In this document: piece after piece, positions 30,765 to 63,281 of the stretch | How the letters are laid out: every line of letters starts with the position of its first letter | How positions within the stretch are numbered: the stretch's first letter is position 1 | NCBI RefSeq assembly: GCF_028583545.1 | Contig: NZ_CP087106.1 | Coordinates: forward strand, 5,191,001 to 5,255,000 | Source of the DNA: Methylobacterium sp. NMS14P | GTDB lineage: Bacteria; Pseudomonadota; Alphaproteobacteria; Rhizobiales; Beijerinckiaceae | Direction of reading: 5' to 3' | DNA: 64,000 nucleotides | Translations under genes and position numbers: made by a program | The notes under the pieces: generated by a model | Told to the model about the DNA's origin: nothing | The model's input: the letters and a program-made list of their open reading frames with translations, nothing else | Database searches by the model: none

Positions 30765-31082
30765 AGGACTTGAAGTGGAGGCTTCTGTTGCCAGGCGCCT
30801 CCGAACCCCGCCTATGCGGTGCTACCCGCGAGGACTTCAGGTCGGTATTGGGGACCGCTTACGCGGCCACCGCCACCGGAGCAAAGTTGTCGTTGGCAAC
30901 TATTGCGAAGGCCCGATAACGGCGGAACCATGCCGAGCGAAAGTCCAACCTTTACGCCCTCGTCGATCCTACTTCGCCCCCGCCGAAGCCCAGGCGCCGG
31001 GCATGCACCTTGCGGCAGCATGTCCTGGGCTCGGGTGGAGGCGCCGGGTACCGCCCCCGGGTCCGATAGGTTTATTGCGAAG
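30765..31082 (-). ncRNA. ssrA: Two-piece permuted tmRNA (alpha type)
   Basis: Read on the minus strand, the acceptor piece comes first: a T-arm CCGGG/CCCGG (31044-31060), then CGCCTCC-ACC at 31043-31034. The coding piece follows, beginning GGGGGCGAAGTAGGATCGACG minus its last base at 30981. GGGGGCG pairs with CGCCTCC to rebuild the acceptor stem. The tag frame at 30897-30859 reads ANDNFAPVAVAA and stop. A GGAGGC/GCCTCC hairpin closes the 3' end near 30780-30800. The outer ends are approximate. Partner genes: sspB directly downstream. Confidence 0.95.
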
Positions 31083-31146
31083 AACGTTTATCGCCATAGC
31101 CGGCCTCGCGACCGGCTCGTGAGATATAGAGGGGATCGGTCCGGTT

Positions 31147-54971: not shown

Positions 54972-55328
54972 ATGTCGCGATGGAGATTGAGGACGGTCGC
55001 GCTCGGCGTCGCATCCGTATGCTGCGCGACAGGCGCACTGGCCCAAGGTGCACCGGTGCCGAACGTCAACGACTGCACCTTCATCCGCGACCCGACGGCG
55101 CTGCGGGACTGCATCGAGCTCTACGAAGGCCAGCGGCTCGCACCCGGCCCCCGGCCTGCAGCCTTCCAGCAGCCGCCCGTGATCGACCAATCCTTGCTCG
55201 AAGCGGCGGGTCCGATCCCGGCGACCGGCGTGTCGCGCCGCGGGAAGCGGCGCAAGCTCCGGCAGAGCCGCCGGCCCGCCACGCCGGCCCAGGCCGTCCA
55301 AGTCGAGCAATTGGCGCCGCCTCAGTAA
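54972..55328 (+). CDS. Small secreted NDCT-motif protein (curli-locus paralog 1)
   Basis: 118 residues. Signal peptide (TVALGVASVCCATGALAQ), then VPNVNDCTFIRDPTALRDCI and YEGQRLAPGPRP, and a basic, Pro/Gln-rich tail. The NDCT-x3-DP-x-ALR-x-C core recurs in the gene at 61527-61892, at the other side of the curli block; two cysteines nine or more residues apart could bond. Its stop overlaps the end of the transglycosylase gene in convergent orientation. Function unknown; a link to curli is inferred from position and paralogy. Confidence 0.78.
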   Translation: MSRWRLRTVALGVASVCCATGALAQGAPVPNVNDCTFIRDPTALRDCIELYEGQRLAPGPRPAAFQQPPVIDQSLLEAAGPIPATGVSRRGKRRKLRQSRRPATPAQAVQVEQLAPPQ

Positions 55329-56368
55329 ACCGCCTGCACCAGACAGGTGCGTCCCTGGCCGTTCAGGACCCCACAGAGGGCCTGCTCGGATCGCGGCTGC
55401 TGCGACTGGGCCGGCAGGCGCTGAGCGCCCCGCTTGAGGGCCAACTTGGCGACGGGCTGGGCAGCCCGCTCGCTCGCCACCGCCGCCACGCTGCGCCCGA
55501 CCGGCGGAGCCCCGAACAGGGTCGAAGGCCGCGTCGGCGGATCGGTGGGCCAGCCGGCGACGCGGCCGAGACCGCGGGGGCCTGAGAAGAGCGATGGGGT
55601 GCTCAGGAAGGATCGGCCGCTCTCCGCGGCCCATTCCTCAACGGTGCGGCCCGTGATGCGGACCACGTAGTCGCGCGTCTCGGCAGGCATGCCCGAGCGG
55701 CCATCGAGCCAGCCGCGCACCCGTTGCGGCCCGGCATTGTAGGCCGCCGCGGCCAATCCGAGATTGCCGAAGCGCGCCCTGTGCTCCCGCAGCAACTCGG
55801 CCGATTTCGGGATCGCCTCCAGGGGATCGAACGGGTTGCGCAGGCCGCGCTCCGCGGCTGTGCCGGGCATGAACTGGGCGATGCCGAGCGCGCCCACCGG
55901 GCTCACGGCGTTGGGGTTGAGGCCGCTCTCCTGACGCAGCAGGCGCAGGAAGAAGTCGCCGGGCAGACCGTGGGCGGCGGCCGCTGCGGCGATCAGGGCG
56001 TGCATCCCGTCCCCAACCTGCGGGAACAGCAGGGTGGTCGCCTCGATCGGTCGGAACGCGCCGCGGCCCAGAACCAGCAGGTCGGCGAGCGCCGGCGCGA
56101 TGATCGGCGCCGCCGCCGGCCTATCCGCCGGCCTGTCCGCCGGCCCGTTCGCGAGCCCGAGCGGGGGCGGCGCCGCGATCGGCGGGAAGGGCGCGAAGGG
56201 CGTGAGGGCGGCGGCGTCGGGGATCGCCGGGCTCCGGGCCGTGCTCGAGGCTCGCGAGGCGATCACCGGCGTCAGGGCGGCGGACACGACGAGGCACAGG
56301 GCCAGCGTGCCCCGCACGCTCCTCCGGCGGCGGCCGAACCTGTGCGTCGGTGCGAAAGGCCTGTCCAT
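55322..56368 (-). CDS. Secreted lytic transglycosylase (curli locus)
   Basis: 348 residues. Signal-anchor-like N-terminus (GTLALCLVVSAALTPVIA), a proline/alanine linker, then a Slt70-type SLT domain at about residues 120-240: LRLLRQESGLNPNAVSPVGA with catalytic Glu in RQESGL, ALGIAQFMPGTA and LAAAAYNAGPQRV. It cleaves peptidoglycan glycan strands. It starts 6 nt after csgG and so is most likely part of the csg transcript, perhaps clearing wall for the export complex. Its C-terminus has two cysteines (ALCGV, RTCLV). Confidence 0.9.
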   Translation of the reverse strand: MDRPFAPTHRFGRRRRSVRGTLALCLVVSAALTPVIASRASSTARSPAIPDAAALTPFAPFPPIAAPPPLGLANGPADRPADRPAAAPIIAPALADLLVLGRGAFRPIEATTLLFPQVGDGMHALIAAAAAAHGLPGDFFLRLLRQESGLNPNAVSPVGALGIAQFMPGTAAERGLRNPFDPLEAIPKSAELLREHRARFGNLGLAAAAYNAGPQRVRGWLDGRSGMPAETRDYVVRITGRTVEEWAAESGRSFLSTPSLFSGPRGLGRVAGWPTDPPTRPSTLFGAPPVGRSVAAVASERAAQPVAKLALKRGAQRLPAQSQQPRSEQALCGVLNGQGRTCLVQAVY

Positions 56369-56374
56369 GGCGGA

Positions 56375-57283
56375 TCAGGATTTCACCACCAGCGGGCCCG
56401 CCGCCACCGTCGGTCCCGGGACCTCGAGGGGCGTCGGCCGGTCGCGGGCCAGGTACTCGTCCACGAGGCGGGTGCCGAGCACCGGGTCGCGGAAGCGCCA
56501 CAGCTTCTTGCGGCTGCCCTCGATGATCGTCGCGTAGACGGCGAGGTCGATCGCCTCGCGGACCGCCATCTGGGTCGGCTCGTTCCGGGTCACGCCCGTC
56601 TCGACCTGGAGCAGCTTGGCCACCGCGACGTAGCGGTAGGCGTTGGCGTTGAGCGCGACCGAGTAGATCGTCTTCGTCACCGTGACGCTGTTGAGCACCT
56701 CGCCGCTCTGCACGGAGACGATGCGCATCGCCACCGTCACCTCGTCGCGCCGGTACTTGGTGTCGCCGCCGATGCCCAGGAGGTTGGCGCCGGCGCCACC
56801 CGTGACCGTGTTGGCGTCGTAGCCGATGATGCCGCCCTCGACGATCAGGCCGGCGAAGCGGATCGGCGGCAGCGGCTTCGCCTCCGTGCCGTCGAATTCC
56901 TGGCGGGTCGCCCGGATCAGCTGCCGCTCCTGCAGCAGGTTGGCGAGGCCGGTGCGCTCGACCACCGAGAACCACTGGCCGCGCCCGGCGCGCCGCAGCG
57001 CGTCGACCACGAAGGCGCCGCCGCCCTGTGTCACGGCGCGGGAATACTCCGCGATGTTGTCGTTCGGCTTGTTCTGGCCGGTCAGGTCCGGGAAATTGTA
57101 GATCGCGATGTCGATCTTGCGGGTCGGCGGCGGCAGCGTCTCGAGATTGAGATCGGTCGGGGAGGGCGGCGTCACCACGGGCGCCTGCGCGAGCAGCTCG
57201 CGCTCCCACGGCGCGCAGGCGGCCAGACCCGCGCAGAGCAGCGCGGCGCCGGCCAGGCTCTTCAGAAAGCTACGCACGGGCAA
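56375..57283 (-). CDS. csgG: Curli export pore lipoprotein CsgG
   Basis: 302 residues. Lipobox LAAC near residue 23, then the CsgG fold: IDIAIYNFPDLTGQNKPND, SVVERTGLANLLQERQLIRA split by a helix, GGIIGYDANTVTGG and YRRDEVTVAMRIVSVQSGEV. It forms the nonameric outer-membrane channel that secretes curlin. The start is TTG 57283 or GTG 57277. It is followed after 6 nt by the transglycosylase. The C-terminal tail after RFRDPVLGTRLVDEYL is longer than in E. coli. Confidence 0.96.
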   Translation of the reverse strand: MPVRSFLKSLAGAALLCAGLAACAPWERELLAQAPVVTPPSPTDLNLETLPPPTRKIDIAIYNFPDLTGQNKPNDNIAEYSRAVTQGGGAFVVDALRRAGRGQWFSVVERTGLANLLQERQLIRATRQEFDGTEAKPLPPIRFAGLIVEGGIIGYDANTVTGGAGANLLGIGGDTKYRRDEVTVAMRIVSVQSGEVLNSVTVTKTIYSVALNANAYRYVAVAKLLQVETGVTRNEPTQMAVREAIDLAVYATIIEGSRKKLWRFRDPVLGTRLVDEYLARDRPTPLEVPGPTVAAGPLVVKS

Positions 57284-57401
57284 CCCCGTCTCCGTTCGGC
57301 TTCGGAGCTCCGGCCCTCCGCGCGGCCGCCCGAGCGGGCGACGGAGGGGGGCGGAGCCGGCTCCGGCTTCGATGCTCGACGACCATGGCTGCGCCTCGCC
57401 C

Positions 57402-57899
57402 TCAGGGCGCGCCCGAGATCGGCGACGTGCCGGTCGAGCTGCCGCCGACGGCCGCGGTCGCCGGGACGACGATGGTGGTGGTCGACTGGCCGTCGAAGAT
57501 TTGGAGCTGGATGTTGCTGCCCAGGCGCTGGAAGGTCACCTGCGAGCCGCCGAAGCTGTAGCTGCCGCTCTGCTGGGCGTTCTCGCCGAAGAGCGACTGC
57601 GTGATCTGGTTGGCCAGCGAGCTGTAGATCTGCGTCTGCAACTGCTGGGCGAAGATCTGGCCCGGGGTCTTGGTGTTGGCGGCGCTCTGGTTGGCCGAGA
57701 ACAGCTGCTGGTCGCGCTGGGCCGACCGCTGCGCGTCGTTCTGGGCGGCGGCCTCGGCCTGCAGCCAGGATCCGTTCAGCGGGCTTCCCCCGAAGGACGG
57801 GTTGACCGGCTGGTAGACGAGGCTGCCCGCCTGCGCACCCGCGACGGCGAGGAGGGCCCAGCCGCAGACGAGCGGCCCGAGGAGACGGGACTGGCGCAT
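57402..57899 (-). CDS. csgF: Curli assembly factor CsgF
   Basis: 165 residues. Signal peptide (CGWALLAVAGAQAG), then the conserved SLVYQPVNPSFGGSPLNGSW, whose N-terminal segment inserts into the CsgG pore in E. coli, and a helix/neck region (QIFAQQLQTQIYSSLANQIT). The C-terminal part (TIVVPATAAVG) ends the fold. It starts 4 nt after the csgB stop, so csgB-csgF are co-transcribed. Confidence 0.94.
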   Translation of the reverse strand: MRQSRLLGPLVCGWALLAVAGAQAGSLVYQPVNPSFGGSPLNGSWLQAEAAAQNDAQRSAQRDQQLFSANQSAANTKTPGQIFAQQLQTQIYSSLANQITQSLFGENAQQSGSYSFGGSQVTFQRLGSNIQLQIFDGQSTTTIVVPATAAVGGSSTGTSPISGAP

Positions 57900-57903
57900 G
57901 GGA

Positions 57904-58476
57904 CTACCTCTGGGTGACCGAGACGCTGGGACCGTTGCCGACCCGCGTGATGCTGATCGGCGTCGGGTTGGTGCCCTGCTGCTGCGCCGAGATGGCGTTG
58001 TTGTCGCCGCGGACCGTGATGGTGGCCGCCGCGCCGCCGTCCTGCTGGGTCCCGACCGTGTTGGACTGGCCGAAGACCGACACGGTCGACTGGTTGTACG
58101 ATCCCGTCTGCTGCTGGGTCACCGTGTTGCGCGAACCGATCACGTTCTGGATCGCCACGTTCGCGTAGCCCGACATGTCGATCGTGCCCGTGTTGCCCGA
58201 TCCGATCTGCAGGGCCCGGGCCTGGTTGGCCTGCGCCGACTGGGGCGGGCCGCTCGGATTGAGCAGCAGGATGCCGGACTGATTGCCGAGGATGTAGTCG
58301 CTCTCCTGGATCCCCCGTCCCTGAGTGCCGGTGGGGCGCTGAGCGGCCGCCTGGATCTGCTCGATCGCGACGCGATCCTGCGCCGCCGCGGAGCCGGCCG
58401 CACTCGCGACGGCGAGCGGGACGACAACGAGCAGCGCTCGACCTGCAGCGCGGCTGCGACGCGTACGGCGCATCAT
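57904..58476 (-). CDS. csgB: Minor curlin/nucleator, CsgB-like
   Basis: 190 residues. Signal peptide ending GSAAAQD, about 60 residues of non-repeat, then about four imperfect curlin repeats rich in Gln/Asn: ALQIGSGNTGTIDM, NVIGSRNTVTQQQTG, VSVFGQSNTVGTQQ, ITVRGDNNAISAQQ. Placement next to csgF and fewer repeats than the CsgA gene support the nucleator role. It opens the csgB-csgF-csgG-transglycosylase unit. Confidence 0.85.
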   Translation of the reverse strand: MMRRTRRSRAAGRALLVVVPLAVASAAGSAAAQDRVAIEQIQAAAQRPTGTQGRGIQESDYILGNQSGILLLNPSGPPQSAQANQARALQIGSGNTGTIDMSGYANVAIQNVIGSRNTVTQQQTGSYNQSTVSVFGQSNTVGTQQDGGAAATITVRGDNNAISAQQQGTNPTPISITRVGNGPSVSVTQR

Positions 58477-58575
58477 CTGCCTCCCTAGCCCCTTTTGGGC
58501 TACCTTAAATCAGTGTTCCGTGTGATTGTATAGTATCAGGGTTTATCCACACATGGTCACATCTGTTATGTGGTG

Positions 58576-58586
58576 AATTGGACACA
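58576..58586. promoter_or_regulatory. AATTGGACACA box upstream of csgB
   Basis: This 11-mer lies 100 nt upstream of csgB and recurs exactly at 60616-60626 upstream of csgA. The 58477-58713 gap is AT-rich, with CACAT...ATGTG flanking (58551-58573), so it probably holds the csgB promoter. Confidence 0.5.
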
Positions 58587-58713
58587 CGTGTCGAGGCCGG
58601 AGACTCGCTGTAGCTGTCTTTCGGGTGCGGCAATGTCAATGGAGCCGCAGGCACTCGTCCCATCAGGAAATGACGGAGCTCGACCTGTCGGCTTGCAGGG
58701 CTCGAGCGGCGTG

Positions 58714-59043
58714 TCACAGGTCCTGCGTGCTGTCGTAGGCGCAGCTGATCCTGTGGCCGTCCACCTGCACGGAGGCGTCGACGCTCAGCTGACCGTCCGC
58801 ACGGACGCTGATCGTCAGCTTGCCGACCTCACGGGTACCGCTGTCGGCGAGGTCGAAGCCGCCGCCCTGCTGCATCGTTGCTGTGCCTGACGGATCGGAC
58901 TTGCGTACGACCAAATTGTAATGGCCGGCGGTCCCGGGAGGAGCCTCAATCCGCAGAGTCAAGCGTGCAATGTCTGCCGAACGAGTTTCGACCACGCGGC
59001 AGAGGACCGGGGGATCAACGATGAAGCTGGGCATGATCGGCAC
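58714..59043 (-). CDS. csgH: Curli inhibitor CsgH-like protein
   Basis: 109 residues. A single beta-sandwich-like domain: VLCRVVETRSADIARLTLRI, HYNLVVRKSDPSGTATMQQG, EVGKLTISVRADGQLSV and RISCAYD, matching CsgH, the alphaproteobacterial chaperone that blocks CsgA aggregation in the periplasm. The two Cys (LCRV, SCAY) could pair. No signal peptide follows from GTG 59043 or ATG 59034; the frame stays open upstream but shows no canonical start. How it reaches the periplasm is unclear. Confidence 0.85.
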   Translation of the reverse strand: MPIMPSFIVDPPVLCRVVETRSADIARLTLRIEAPPGTAGHYNLVVRKSDPSGTATMQQGGGFDLADSGTREVGKLTISVRADGQLSVDASVQVDGHRISCAYDSTQDL

Positions 59044-59081
59044 CGCGCCCGCAATTGAGTTGGCTATTTGGTTTCAGGACT

Positions 59082-59111
59082 GGAAGGAACGCTCCTCAGA
59101 GCGCCCCTTCC
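59082..59111 (-). terminator. Hairpin between csgA and csgH
   Basis: GGAAGG-aa-CGCTC-ctca-GAGCG-cc-CCTTCC, two stacked stems in the 107-nt csgA-csgH gap. It may partly terminate after csgA, giving much curlin and less inhibitor. Confidence 0.6.
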
Positions 59112-59150
59112 GTCAAAGTCGGTGTCTAAAAGGGCTGTCGGCCCGGTTTC

Positions 59151-60284
59151 TTAGCGCTGCCGGATCGTCACATTGTTGCCGCTGCCGAACTGAGCGAAGC
59201 CCGCGTTGGAGTAATACGCTCCGCCCTGAGTGATCGAGCCGCCGTTGTTATTGCCGTTCTGGTAGATAAATGCACCGACTCCCTGATTGCCGGCCTGCGA
59301 GATGTAACCGCTGTTGCCATCGCCAATCTGAAGGATCGCCGCGTAGTTCGTGAAGCCGTTTTGATCAATGTTTCCGGTATTGCTGTTACCGACTTGGCGG
59401 ACGGCCGCATACGCGTTCGAGCTGCTGCCATACTGATTGATCAAGGAGTAGTTGCCGTTGCCTTCCTGGGTGATGCCCGCAAAAATCGAGCTGCCGTACT
59501 GTTCGATGTAGCCCTGGTTGCTGCTGCCATTCTGCCGAACCGACGCATTGGCATCGCTGCTGCTGGAATACTGCCGGATGCGGGAGATATTGTCGTTCCC
59601 ATCCTGAACAATGTCTGCGCTTGTCCGGGTGCTGCCTTGTTCAATGTATCCCTGGTTCCTGTCGCCCCGCTGGGTAACAGTGGCGGTTACATTCGAGCTC
59701 GTGCTGTACTGGTTGATCTGAGAATTATTCGAAGTTCCGTTCTGGAAAATGCCGGCGTAGGTGGTATTGGAATTTGCGTCAGCAATGATTGTCGCGCTGT
59801 TCTTGTCGCCGTTCTGCTGGAACTGAGCCTTGCCGTTCATTCCGTTCTGGGTAATGGACACTCCATTGCCACTGCCTGCCGAGAAGGAGCCCTTCGTGGG
59901 ATCAAGCGAGAAATCGGCGCGAGAATAATTGCCGTTTGTCGTGACAACCTGATTGTTGTTGCCGCCTTGGACGATCGATAGACCGTTGTCGTACCCAGAC
60001 TGTACGACAGTATTTGCGTCATTTAAGGCAGCATTTCCATTAGCGGCGGTGAGATTTGTTGCCGTCAGATCAATCTGATTGTTCAGAAATCCGGCCTTGG
60101 CGTTCGTGCCCTGCGTTTGATCAACCGTTGCCCTGTTGCGATCGCCGCGCTGAAGAACGATGGCCTCGTTCGCCGTGGTGCCGGCACCGAGGACCGGTGA
60201 AATCATGGACTGCGCCGAGGCGCCGGTCGCGAAGGCGGTCAGGCTGGCGACGGCGACGGAAGCCAGAAGAACTGATTTGAACAT
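59151..60284 (-). CDS. csgA: Major curlin, unusually long CsgA
   Basis: 377 residues, more than twice E. coli CsgA. Signal peptide (LASVAVASLTAFATGASA, cut before Gln25). About ten or more curlin-type repeats fit V/I-x-Q-x-G-x2-N-x3-I-x-Q: e.g. IVLQRGDRNRATVDQ, TVTQRGDRNQGYIEQ, SVRQNGSSNQGYIEQ, AVRQVGNSNTGNIDQ, AILQIGDGNSGYISQ and FAQFGSGNNVTIRQ. Serine/tyrosine linkers separate them. It should assemble into extracellular amyloid. AGAGGGAG precedes ATG 60284. Codon use is less GC-biased than neighbouring genes. Confidence 0.93.
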   Translation of the reverse strand: MFKSVLLASVAVASLTAFATGASAQSMISPVLGAGTTANEAIVLQRGDRNRATVDQTQGTNAKAGFLNNQIDLTATNLTAANGNAALNDANTVVQSGYDNGLSIVQGGNNNQVVTTNGNYSRADFSLDPTKGSFSAGSGNGVSITQNGMNGKAQFQQNGDKNSATIIADANSNTTYAGIFQNGTSNNSQINQYSTSSNVTATVTQRGDRNQGYIEQGSTRTSADIVQDGNDNISRIRQYSSSSDANASVRQNGSSNQGYIEQYGSSIFAGITQEGNGNYSLINQYGSSSNAYAAVRQVGNSNTGNIDQNGFTNYAAILQIGDGNSGYISQAGNQGVGAFIYQNGNNNGGSITQGGAYYSNAGFAQFGSGNNVTIRQR

Positions 60285-60379
60285 GGATACACTCCCTCTT
60301 TTCTCTTTTGTGCTCTTTTGAACACAATCCAGGCCATCGCGGTCGCACTGTTGTCGCGGCGCTTTAACGGCTTGTTAAG

Positions 60380-60408
60380 CGTATCCATGGGCTCAAGACG
60401 GGTGTCAA
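60380..60408 (-). promoter_or_regulatory. Candidate csgA promoter
   Basis: On the minus strand TTGACA (60408-60403), 17-nt spacer, then GATACG (60385-60380). Transcription would begin about 90 nt upstream of csgA. The -10 match is modest. Confidence 0.45.
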
Positions 60409-60615
60409 GTTCGGGTTGACCGAAAAACTACAATTGTCGGAATTTCTCAGCTGATTTGAGGCGGCAAAAATGACTTGATGTCTGACAAAGCGCCCAGAGA
60501 AAATTCTGTTTTCTCAATTGTTTAAGGATGCGCGTTAACGATCTCTGGAGTCGGTGTCCAGAACCGGATTAGGCAGTTTTCGCCGCCGAAGGCCCGGGCC
60601 GCTATATGCGTGTTA

Positions 60616-60626
60616 AATTGGACACA
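60616..60626. promoter_or_regulatory. AATTGGACACA box between csgA and the secreted-protein operon
   Basis: Exact copy of the box at 58576-58586. It lies 332 nt upstream of csgA and 206 nt upstream of the divergent gene at 60832. A mirror-image GTGTCCA is at 60554-60560. Confidence 0.5.
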
Positions 60627-60831
60627 TCAGTCATCGTCAAAAGTGGTATTCTATTGAGCAAGCAAGACCGTTCTGAATGGTCGTATGCGGCGCGATTCCT
60701 CGGGGTGAGCCCTGCCGCTGCCGAACGGCCGTCGCCCGTGCGTGAGCCGGAGGGTTCACCCGGTCGACGGAGCGGTCGATGTCCTCGCGAGGCGGAAACC
60801 GTCCGCGCCGTGTGTTGATTGGGAGGCTACG

Positions 60832-61530
60832 ATGAGGCAGCGCGGCCCATCGCGCGTGCAGATCCTGCTCGCCGCCGCGACCGTGTGGTCGGCCGGGACC
60901 CTGTCGGCGGCCGCACAATCCGCGGCGCCGCCCGGGCCGCCGCAACCGGCGCCGGCCCAGCCGGCGCCCGCACAGCCCGCACCGGTGCAGGCCAATACCG
61001 CCAATCCCGGGCAGGGGCAGCCCGCTCCCGCCGCTCCGGGCTGCGACGCGACCTGCGTGCGCGCCAACAACGAGCTCGCGTCCCAGATCTGCGCGCCTCG
61101 GATCGAGGCGCAGGCGCCGACGGATTTCGAGTGGGTCTCCCGGCCCTTCGCCAAGATCTTCCAGCAGGCCGAGGCGCCCGAAGGCGGCGCCACGGTGGTC
61201 CGCTACCGCGGCGACTCGATCCGCTTCCTCAGCCCCGCCAAGGAGTGGGTGCGGGTGACCTACGAGTGCGGGTTCGACGCGGCCAAGCGGTCGGTCGAGT
61301 ACGTGCGGGTGCGGCTCGGCCGGCTCGACAGGGCGGATGCGCCCGCGCAGCCGGCGCAGCAGGGCCGACCGAACGCCCCGGCGCCGCAACCGATGTCGCC
61401 CCAGGCGCAGCAGCAGCAGCAGCAGGCCGCCCGAACCGGGACGGCACCCCCGCGCAAGCTGCTGCCGTCGGAGCCGAGCGAGATCGAGGTCCGTCAGGTC
61501 AATCCGCGAACCCGGCAGGCGCAGCCGTGA
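60832..61530 (+). CDS. Secreted Cys-containing protein of the curli region
   Basis: 232 residues, family not recognised. Signal peptide (ILLAAATVWSAGTLSAAAQS), a Pro/Ala/Gln linker (APAQPAPAQPAPVQ), then a folded part (about 70-165) with GCDATCVRANNELASQICAP (three cysteines) and FLSPAKEWVRVTYECGFD (a fourth), and a Gln/Pro-rich tail. GGGAGG sits 6 nt before ATG 60832. It is divergent from csgA and overlaps the next gene by GTGA, so the pair is translationally coupled. A curli-related role is inferred from position only. Confidence 0.75.
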   Translation: MRQRGPSRVQILLAAATVWSAGTLSAAAQSAAPPGPPQPAPAQPAPAQPAPVQANTANPGQGQPAPAAPGCDATCVRANNELASQICAPRIEAQAPTDFEWVSRPFAKIFQQAEAPEGGATVVRYRGDSIRFLSPAKEWVRVTYECGFDAAKRSVEYVRVRLGRLDRADAPAQPAQQGRPNAPAPQPMSPQAQQQQQQAARTGTAPPRKLLPSEPSEIEVRQVNPRTRQAQP

Positions 61531-61892
61531 GCCCGCGGCCGATCCCCCGGGGGGGCGCGGTGCGAATCGCGACCGGCGCGCTCGCGCTCCTCGCGGCGAG
61601 CGCTGTGGCGGCCGCCGCACAGCCGAGTCCGCTCTCCGTGAACGACTGCACGCTGCTGCCCGATCCCGGGGCTCTCCGGCGCTGCCTCGACCAAGCCGAG
61701 GGGCGTGTCGTCGCGCCGCTTCCGCCGGTCGCGAGCCCGGCTCCGGTCGACCGGCCCGAACAGCCGGCGCAGTCCGTGCGCGGGGCGCCTGCCGCCAAGC
61801 CCGCGGCGCCGCCGGCCGATTTCCTCGGCAACCGCGGCGCACCTGTGCGGAGCGCGCAACCGTCGTCCCGGAAGGTCATCGAGCTCGAGTGA
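61527..61892 (+). CDS. Small secreted NDCT-motif protein (curli-locus paralog 2)
   Basis: 121 residues from GTG 61527. Signal peptide (ATGALALLAASAVAAAAQ), then PLSVNDCTLLPDPGALRRCL and EGRVVAPLPPV, the same NDCT-x3-DP-x-ALR-x-C core as the protein at 54972-55328, followed by a Pro/Ala-rich tail. Start overlaps the stop of the preceding gene. GTG 61560 would also preserve most of the signal peptide. Function unknown. Confidence 0.75.
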   Translation: MSPRPIPRGGAVRIATGALALLAASAVAAAAQPSPLSVNDCTLLPDPGALRRCLDQAEGRVVAPLPPVASPAPVDRPEQPAQSVRGAPAAKPAAPPADFLGNRGAPVRSAQPSSRKVIELE

Positions 61893-62336: not shown

Positions 62337-63281
62337 ATGATGAAGCCAGGATGGGTCCGCCGAGATATTGTGAAAACCGGTCTTCGAGGTCTGCCGCTCT
62401 GCACGATGGCGTCCCTGATGGGAATCGAACGCTCGAATGCGGCGATCGACGCGACCGCGGATCCCACCCAGGGGCGTGCGCTCATCTTCGATGAGCCGTT
62501 CAAGGAGATCAACGGCCGGATCTGGAACGGTGGTCCGAAGGCGACAACGGGGCCGTCCGGATTCTACGGACGCTCCGCCTTCGCGCCCCTCTCCGGGGCT
62601 GAGGGCTTCAAACCGTACGAGATTATCGACGATCCGGATGCCACGGGAGGCACTGCCCTTCAGATTTCCGCGAAATATATCGGGCGCACGATGACCGTCG
62701 TGAATTATTATGGAAACAACACGCCCGATTACCAATGGATTTCCGGTAACTTGCAGGCTGGAAGCCGCAGCGGCGTCGTGTCGATCGGCTGGGCACAGGG
62801 CTATTTCGAGGCCAGGATGAAGTTCCCGCGCCATCCATTGACCTGGCCCGCTTTCTGGTTGCTGAACCGAGACGGTATTGCGAATACAAAAAGAAGCATT
62901 GAAGTCGATATCGTTGAGCAGAAAGGGTTTGAGCCCAACCTCTACGGTGCATACCTGCACGAGTGGGGACAGCCCGGCGAGCATAACGAAGGGAGTGGCG
63001 TGCCGACGTCGGTCGACATGACCCAACAGTATTGTCGCTACGGCGTGCTGATCCGCGACGGGCAGTGCATTCCCTATTTCGAGCGCAAGCCGATCATCAA
63101 CCCGGCCACAAACCAGATCAACATCTGGACACTCACGCGTGCGTCGGAAATGGAGAGAACCGGCGATGTCTTCTGGCCGCTCCTCACCCTGGCGTTACGG
63201 ACAGATGTTCCGGCTCCCCAACTGACGGAAGCGCAGAAACTTGCCCATATGCGGGTCGATTACGTCCGCGTGTATGGCTAG
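62337..63281 (+). CDS. Secreted glycoside hydrolase family 16-like enzyme
   Basis: 314 residues. A twin-arginine-like start (WVRRDIVKTGLRGLPL) suggests Tat export. The jelly-roll domain shows WAQGYFEARMKFPRH, WPAFWLLNRDG and the catalytic ExDxxE motif in SIEVDIVEQKG (Glu189, Asp191, Glu194), then YGAYLHEW and VDYVRVYG at the end. GH16 members cut beta-glucans, agar-type galactans or bacterial exopolysaccharides; the substrate here is unknown. Composition is more AT-rich than neighbours, which may reflect transfer. Close to curli genes, so a matrix role is possible. Confidence 0.88.
   Translation: MMKPGWVRRDIVKTGLRGLPLCTMASLMGIERSNAAIDATADPTQGRALIFDEPFKEINGRIWNGGPKATTGPSGFYGRSAFAPLSGAEGFKPYEIIDDPDATGGTALQISAKYIGRTMTVVNYYGNNTPDYQWISGNLQAGSRSGVVSIGWAQGYFEARMKFPRHPLTWPAFWLLNRDGIANTKRSIEVDIVEQKGFEPNLYGAYLHEWGQPGEHNEGSGVPTSVDMTQQYCRYGVLIRDGQCIPYFERKPIINPATNQINIWTLTRASEMERTGDVFWPLLTLALRTDVPAPQLTEAQKLAHMRVDYVRVYG

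Follow-up and report, generated by a model that had tools for sequence, protein, structure and literature searches.

A putative exported protein family with a C-x11-C core associated with curli loci in Methylobacterium

Introduction

Curli systems of the Alphaproteobacteria are reported to be without csgC, csgD and csgE (PMC3521004). The curlin kernel has been published as N-x-psi-x-psi-x-Q, and the same paper (PMC10192328) refers to prior studies that implicate the last CsgB repeat in the interaction between CsgF and CsgB; in E. coli, according to PMC10133297, the anchoring of CsgB on the cell surface requires CsgF. For the genus considered here, a study of 29 Methylobacterium genomes (PMC5017803) states that every carrier of csgG was a plant isolate and that the microbiomes of soybean were richer in csgG than those of rice. 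Here we have analyzed a stretch of 64,000 nucleotides of Methylobacterium sp. NMS14P (contig NZ_CP087106.1, positions 5,191,001 to 5,255,000 of the forward strand), referred to as the window, with coordinates counted from its first letter. It contains a curli locus with two small related proteins, A and B, named NDCT after a motif of their common core, and a third protein, X.

Two related proteins of an undescribed family

Protein A (54972..55328, plus strand) has 118 amino acids and an ATG start, and protein B (61527..61892, plus strand) has 121 and a GTG start. Both were recognized as open reading frames carrying the motif, with a signal peptide, a core containing two cysteines separated by eleven residues (C-x11-C) and a linker, which in A is disordered and followed by a C-terminal tail that we call the Q-tail (described below), and in B leads to a VIELE tail. 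The sequence-only reading had located both frames, and the motifs that it picked out, VNDCT, DPxALRxC and EGx3AP, do stand in register in the two proteins (DPTALRDC and EGQRLAP in A, DPGALRRC and EGRVVAP in B). The position of the start of B is uncertain, as the gene call of a database copy (P0043) is shorter by 11 residues; with translation from the GTG, the start overlaps the stop of X by 4 bases. BLASTP aligned A and B with 16 identities out of 30 (E 4e-9), and the mature parts gave a Smith-Waterman score of 98, against a maximum of 71 with shuffled B (none of the 20,000 shuffles reached 98), which excludes the chance motif that had been named as a refuting outcome. In the whole 6.9-Mb genome A and B were the only copies with E < 0.05, the next matches having values of 0.055 and 0.075.

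The conserved core of A spans residues 30-58 (55059..55145, plus strand; cysteines 35 and 47), as delimited by invariant columns, the ratio of nonsynonymous to synonymous polymorphism (pN/pS) and predicted helices, and that of B residues 37-66 (61635..61724, plus strand; cysteines 41 and 53), by alignment and pN/pS. A crude pN/pS over all pairs of five genomes was 0.06 for the core of A and 0.08 for that of B. Both cores are under strong purifying selection, indicating that A and B are selected proteins and not chance frames in GC-rich DNA. Neither matched any model in Pfam or NCBIfam, and the models of the known curli accessory proteins CsgC, CsgE, CsgF, CsgG and CsgH in these collections gave no match either. 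The signal peptides, judged by eye, suggest export. The alignment of their cores shows A and B to be paralogous members of an undescribed family of putatively exported proteins.

Along 26 diverse rows of the family alignment both cysteines of the C-x11-C core are invariant (besides the start), and V, T, D, P and R are nearly so. We have delimited the family by an export signal and, after it, a C-x11-C core that includes DP and R, features present in A and B (the signals again judged by eye). In addition to the A and B types of the window we found a B-like type (NVNECTFITDPIALRRC), one located downstream of a transglycosylase gene (GNVNDCTLIQDPTELRNC), a divergent one that in four genomes lies ca. 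0.8 kb away from a distant CsgG (CTLIADPTAQRLC), and one adjoining transporter genes (SKINDCTFLTDPTDLRYC). When the 26 members of this alignment (A4) were compared with Pfam only two matched, both to COQ9_N, with a best E of 0.16. With the diverse alignment as the query, 5.8 billion proteins were searched and only the 7994 candidates having most words in common were scored; 140 were retrieved at E <= 0.01, and among the 120 of these that were listed the organisms named were Methylobacterium and Methylorubrum. The named relatives of A and B in protein databases also belong to one or the other. Among the open-access titles listed, which are no proof of absence, none describes the NDCT family or X at curli loci.

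Co-occurrence with csgG

We searched the same 111 genomes of the genus for NDCT (E < 1e-6), CsgF, CsgG and X. NDCT and CsgG were found together in 25 genomes, NDCT alone in 2, CsgG alone in 5 and neither in 79; that is, 25 of the 27 genomes with NDCT have CsgG (the exceptions are G027 and G089), and csgG appears in 5 of the 84 that have no NDCT. Four of these five (G007, G012, G077 and G102) have a weak CsgF match and a CsgG that belongs to a separate clade. As for location, 30 of the 45 NDCT copies have csgG within 10 kb, and two further ones (in G053 and G078) are on contigs that bear X and a transglycosylase. The NDCT association with curli is well supported, and the proposal of the sequence-only reading that this is a new curli-tied accessory family, for which co-occurrence with csgG was the chosen test, has strong backing within the genus. 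The matches in G010 (E 0.001) and G039 (0.007) were dropped before counting, and so were, in an earlier search of the 111 genomes, those in G006, G052, G056, G062 and G092.

A second curli-like locus that has no csgF was found at L079:8518-10927, where a divergent NDCT and a distant CsgG are accompanied by two short proteins that match curlin repeats, in one case below the cut-off. NDCT-csgG pairs of this csgF-less kind are also present in L078, L080 and L273.

Outside the genus, a single degenerate DNA pattern was run over 84,980 genomes of named species. Of the 31 stretches matched, 21 were confirmed and correspond to 20 loci, two of which lie beyond Methylobacterium and Methylorubrum: Microvirga subterranea and Rhodopseudomonas sp. 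B29 both carry NDCT with X and csgA-, csgH-, csgB-, csgF- and csgG-like genes. In the Rhodopseudomonas locus (L258) an FlhA-like gene adjoins NDCT. The family-level search gave 7 of 248 genomes at E <= 1e-4, five in the genus and two (G445 and G478) in two other genera, one of which could be Microvirga; in both of them NDCT is accompanied by X, csgF and csgG. All four clear NDCT loci found outside the genus are in curli loci, so that the link to csgG also holds there. Profile searches at wider ranges scored at most 26-71 candidates per genome, so that distant members can escape; they retrieved 4 of 297 genomes at order level (E <= 0.01), of which G279 and G345 (0.008 each) were taken as chance, and 1 of 289 at class level, the own genome alone. 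Two weak tblastn matches for A, in L277 (E 0.009) and L278 (0.007), had no NDCT core on inspection.

We also inspected 19 csgG loci of other Hyphomicrobiales, for which 19 genomes were drawn on out of the 25 outside the genus that have csgG (four of the stretches were of 12 kb or less), and found no match to NDCT, X or the transglycosylase, indicating that the module is a lineage-specific addition and not a part of curli generally. NDCT is narrow, found in Methylobacterium and a few other Hyphomicrobiales, and is not a general curli component.

Protein X and the C-terminal tails

Protein X (60832..61530, plus strand), located directly before B, is predicted from its alignment and modeled structure to be exported and to consist of a domain with a helix and a three-stranded sheet, a linker and a Q-tail. 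The AlphaFold model shows one long helix and the three-stranded sheet, with several ten-residue blocks scoring at least 90, and, with a cystatin-like fold as one candidate, had no significant fold match. CsgF was found in 27 of the 111 genomes, 23 of them with a strong match (E < 1e-20), and X is present in exactly these 23 (G051 included) and in none of the other 88. A partial, low-scoring match in G019 (5.9e-6) was left out of the count. Five of 21 X members matched DUF930 (PF06059) below threshold, the best with E 0.069, and did not reach the gathering score. The domain of X is shared with relatives in Hyphomicrobiales, but these end in GDxxxxQNxFGAx..YxCDxD..GR[LI], whereas the X of curli loci has a linker and a tail added. 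Four X-domain relatives in genomes without a csgG match have no tail at their end.

The tail of A is VQVEQL (55296..55313, plus strand), recognized through the pattern counts given below, and that of X is IEVRQV (61483..61500, plus strand), in which Q222 is invariant across 21 aligned rows. A-type tails follow the disordered linker and read, for example, VQVEQL, VYIQQV or AYIDQV, and X tails read IEVRQV or VEIRQV; several minor curlins of the same loci end similarly, e.g., in KSINIQQVRAR. We counted the pattern [AVILST]x[VI]xQ[VIL] in the last 25 residues. It was present in 50 of 114 NDCT database proteins (9 of 123, which had no strict core pattern, were excluded), in 6 of 15 called NDCT genes and in 5 of 5 called X genes, as well as in 16 of 94 curlin-like calls versus 6 of 603 other gene calls. 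In this count 17 tails were classed as other: in 13 of them VIDL is followed by one or two final residues, a further one is Q-like and the remaining three proteins are tailless. For X from curli loci the pattern was found in 24 of 28 proteins. By resemblance of sequence, the A-type and X tails are shown to be strand-like, a single copy similar to the curlin kernel and to the C-termini of minor curlins. The X gene of G070 (L243) has an open frame that ends just short of the tail.

Organization of the curli locus

As had been read from the sequence, A and B lie on both sides of the curli genes. Between them, all on the minus strand, are an SLT lytic transglycosylase whose C-terminal tail is conserved and contains cysteine (55322..56368; PF01464, E 4.1e-21), the outer-membrane secretion channel CsgG (56375..57283; PF03783, E 8.7e-51), CsgF (57402..57899; PF10614, E 4.1e-35), a CsgB-like minor curlin (57904..58476; a weak Curlin_rpt match below the cut-off and a weak match to the CsgB model), the chaperone CsgH (58714..59043; NF041112 above the cut-off, E 1e-19) and a CsgA-like major curlin (59151..60284; PF07012 in 7 stretches, E 1.7e-31). 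The gene of A converges on that of the transglycosylase, with a 7-base overlap with its 3' end. Much of this gene set is found again in related genomes in varying order, and this neighborhood, conserved despite the changing gene order, is a stronger argument than the genome counts.

The tail of the curli-linked transglycosylase contains two cysteines and has tyrosine as its last residue (24 of the 25 SLT rows printed end in Y), and is also present at curli loci that have no NDCT. Just past B, at 62337-63281, there is a GH16-like glycan hydrolase (PF00722, sub-threshold). Elsewhere in the window a transfer-messenger RNA gene was located at 30768-31125 on the minus strand, flagged tmRNA* by ARAGORN.

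Possible roles

A and B are probably additional components of a curli machinery unlike that of E. coli. We read A and B, tentatively, as exported accessory parts of one curli lineage, with a clamped head, an arm and often a curlin-like docking tail, a view that we prefer and consider almost as likely as not. The proteins of the family would consist of a small head joined by a disordered arm to a C-terminal tail that is conserved. In the AlphaFold model the core of A forms two short helices (residues 32-37 and 41-55) with a predicted local distance difference test (pLDDT) of about 75-79 per ten residues, lower elsewhere; given the invariance of the cysteines and this modest model, the head is probably a helical hairpin clamped by a C-x11-C disulfide. 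The A-type and X tails might dock on curlin subunits, or else on the part of the CsgG-CsgF-CsgH machinery that binds the nucleator end, and the proteins could in this manner serve at the envelope as tethers, caps or chaperones of subunits. B, which has a different tail and is paired with X, would function as its partner, and the linked transglycosylase would open the peptidoglycan for the pore. More doubtful is the bolder proposal that NDCT-A and X, with no detectable common origin, each gained one curlin-kernel strand at the tip of a disordered arm and insert it in the amyloid or its nucleator, the fiber being attached, capped or decorated by means of borrowed amyloid strands.

Several observations weigh against the accessory-part reading. 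The tail model does not extend to all NDCT proteins, since B-type proteins end in VIDL or VIEL, the csgF-less type ends in WRLQIP, and the copies of Rhodopseudomonas and G478 have no Q-tail. Four of the 28 X proteins also miss the pattern (ELFQV, IEFFQV, IEIQQQ and one open reading frame that ends before any tail), and the Fisher value for the tails is no true probability because the pattern was chosen post hoc, the background came from the same loci and the proteins are related. Homology between NDCT and X was not detectable (hhalign probability 0.2%), and the NDCT model is weak as a whole (pLDDT 63, predicted template modeling score 0.25). As to the distribution, five of the 30 CsgG genomes have no NDCT (the four mentioned above and G051), and the CsgG accompanied by X forms approximately one clade (the tree has 2 changes, and 64% of the bootstrap trees have 1), so that the genomes are not independent trials and the counts overstate their independence. 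Finally, 13 of the 45 NDCT copies are away from curli loci, and to this extent the scattering without csg genes, which had been named as a refuting outcome, does occur, next to the 30 copies that lie near csgG. Ten of the 13 are of A type, and at all ten loci (L048-L057) the surrounding flagellar region contains FliJ, FliI-like and FlhA genes together with a CtrA-like regulator, FliI and CtrA falling past the contig end at one of them; the ten genomes have a second copy at the curli locus. Of the rest, one is near groES and two are near peptide-transporter-like genes.

These unlinked copies, in the flagellar region at all ten loci or beside other genes, together with the near-single clade of the X-accompanied CsgG, are what would be expected if NDCT were a general envelope protein of the lineage hitchhiking with a curli cluster inherited as a block. 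We consider this very unlikely, as the linkage has been kept across at least four genera with differing gene orders, 79 of 81 csgG-less genomes have no NDCT and the cores are under strong purifying selection. The physical proximity to the transglycosylase gene raises another alternative, namely that NDCT proteins are regulators or partners of this enzyme that confine peptidoglycan cutting to the CsgG pore, with no contact with curlin. The gene of A converges on that of the transglycosylase and meets or overlaps it in the window and in G017, G029, G098, G064 and G059, NDCT is found downstream of it on the same strand at ca. 0.1-1.1 kb in Microvirga, G055, G105, G095, G053 and G078, and the enzyme bears a conserved cysteine-containing tail of its own. 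However, the fetched stretches of the csgF-less NDCT loci, Rhodopseudomonas, G445 and G478 gave no transglycosylase match, four csgG loci have the transglycosylase without NDCT, and the B-type copies pair with X instead, all of which makes such a role unlikely.

To a similar degree improbable, in our opinion, is that NDCT and X are periplasmic helpers of export or folding, stand-ins for CsgE and CsgC with tails that mimic substrates for recognition by CsgG or CsgH. The reported lack of csgC, csgD and csgE (PMC3521004, a statement about the class and not about this genome) would leave room for them, and signal peptides, cysteines and curlin-like tails would suit a periplasmic factor. Nevertheless, none of the 19 csgG loci of other Hyphomicrobiales has NDCT or X, indicating that a stand-in is not generally needed, and the fold matches listed for X, none of them significant, included neither CsgE nor CsgC.

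If the tails do dock on curlin, as the accessory-part reading proposes, they would reveal how other proteins come to be fixed to a functional amyloid. The close tracking of csgG and csgF makes the NDCT family and X concrete candidates for the missing parts of alphaproteobacterial curli, and they may bear on plant colonization, because the csgG carriers among the 29 genomes were reported as plant isolates and csgG as more abundant with soybean than with rice.

Comparison with known curli components

Like CsgC, CsgE, CsgF and CsgH, the NDCT proteins are small, apparently exported, encoded at curli loci and track csgG. They differ from all four in that A and B match no models, in the C-x11-C core and in the narrow lineage in which they occur. 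With regard to the minor curlins of CsgB type, their ends in the same loci resemble the C-terminal strand [V/I]x[V/I]xQ[V/I] of the A-type NDCT proteins and X. A, B and X are nonetheless unlike curlins, as the PF07012 repeats are not matched and there is one kernel-like strand only.

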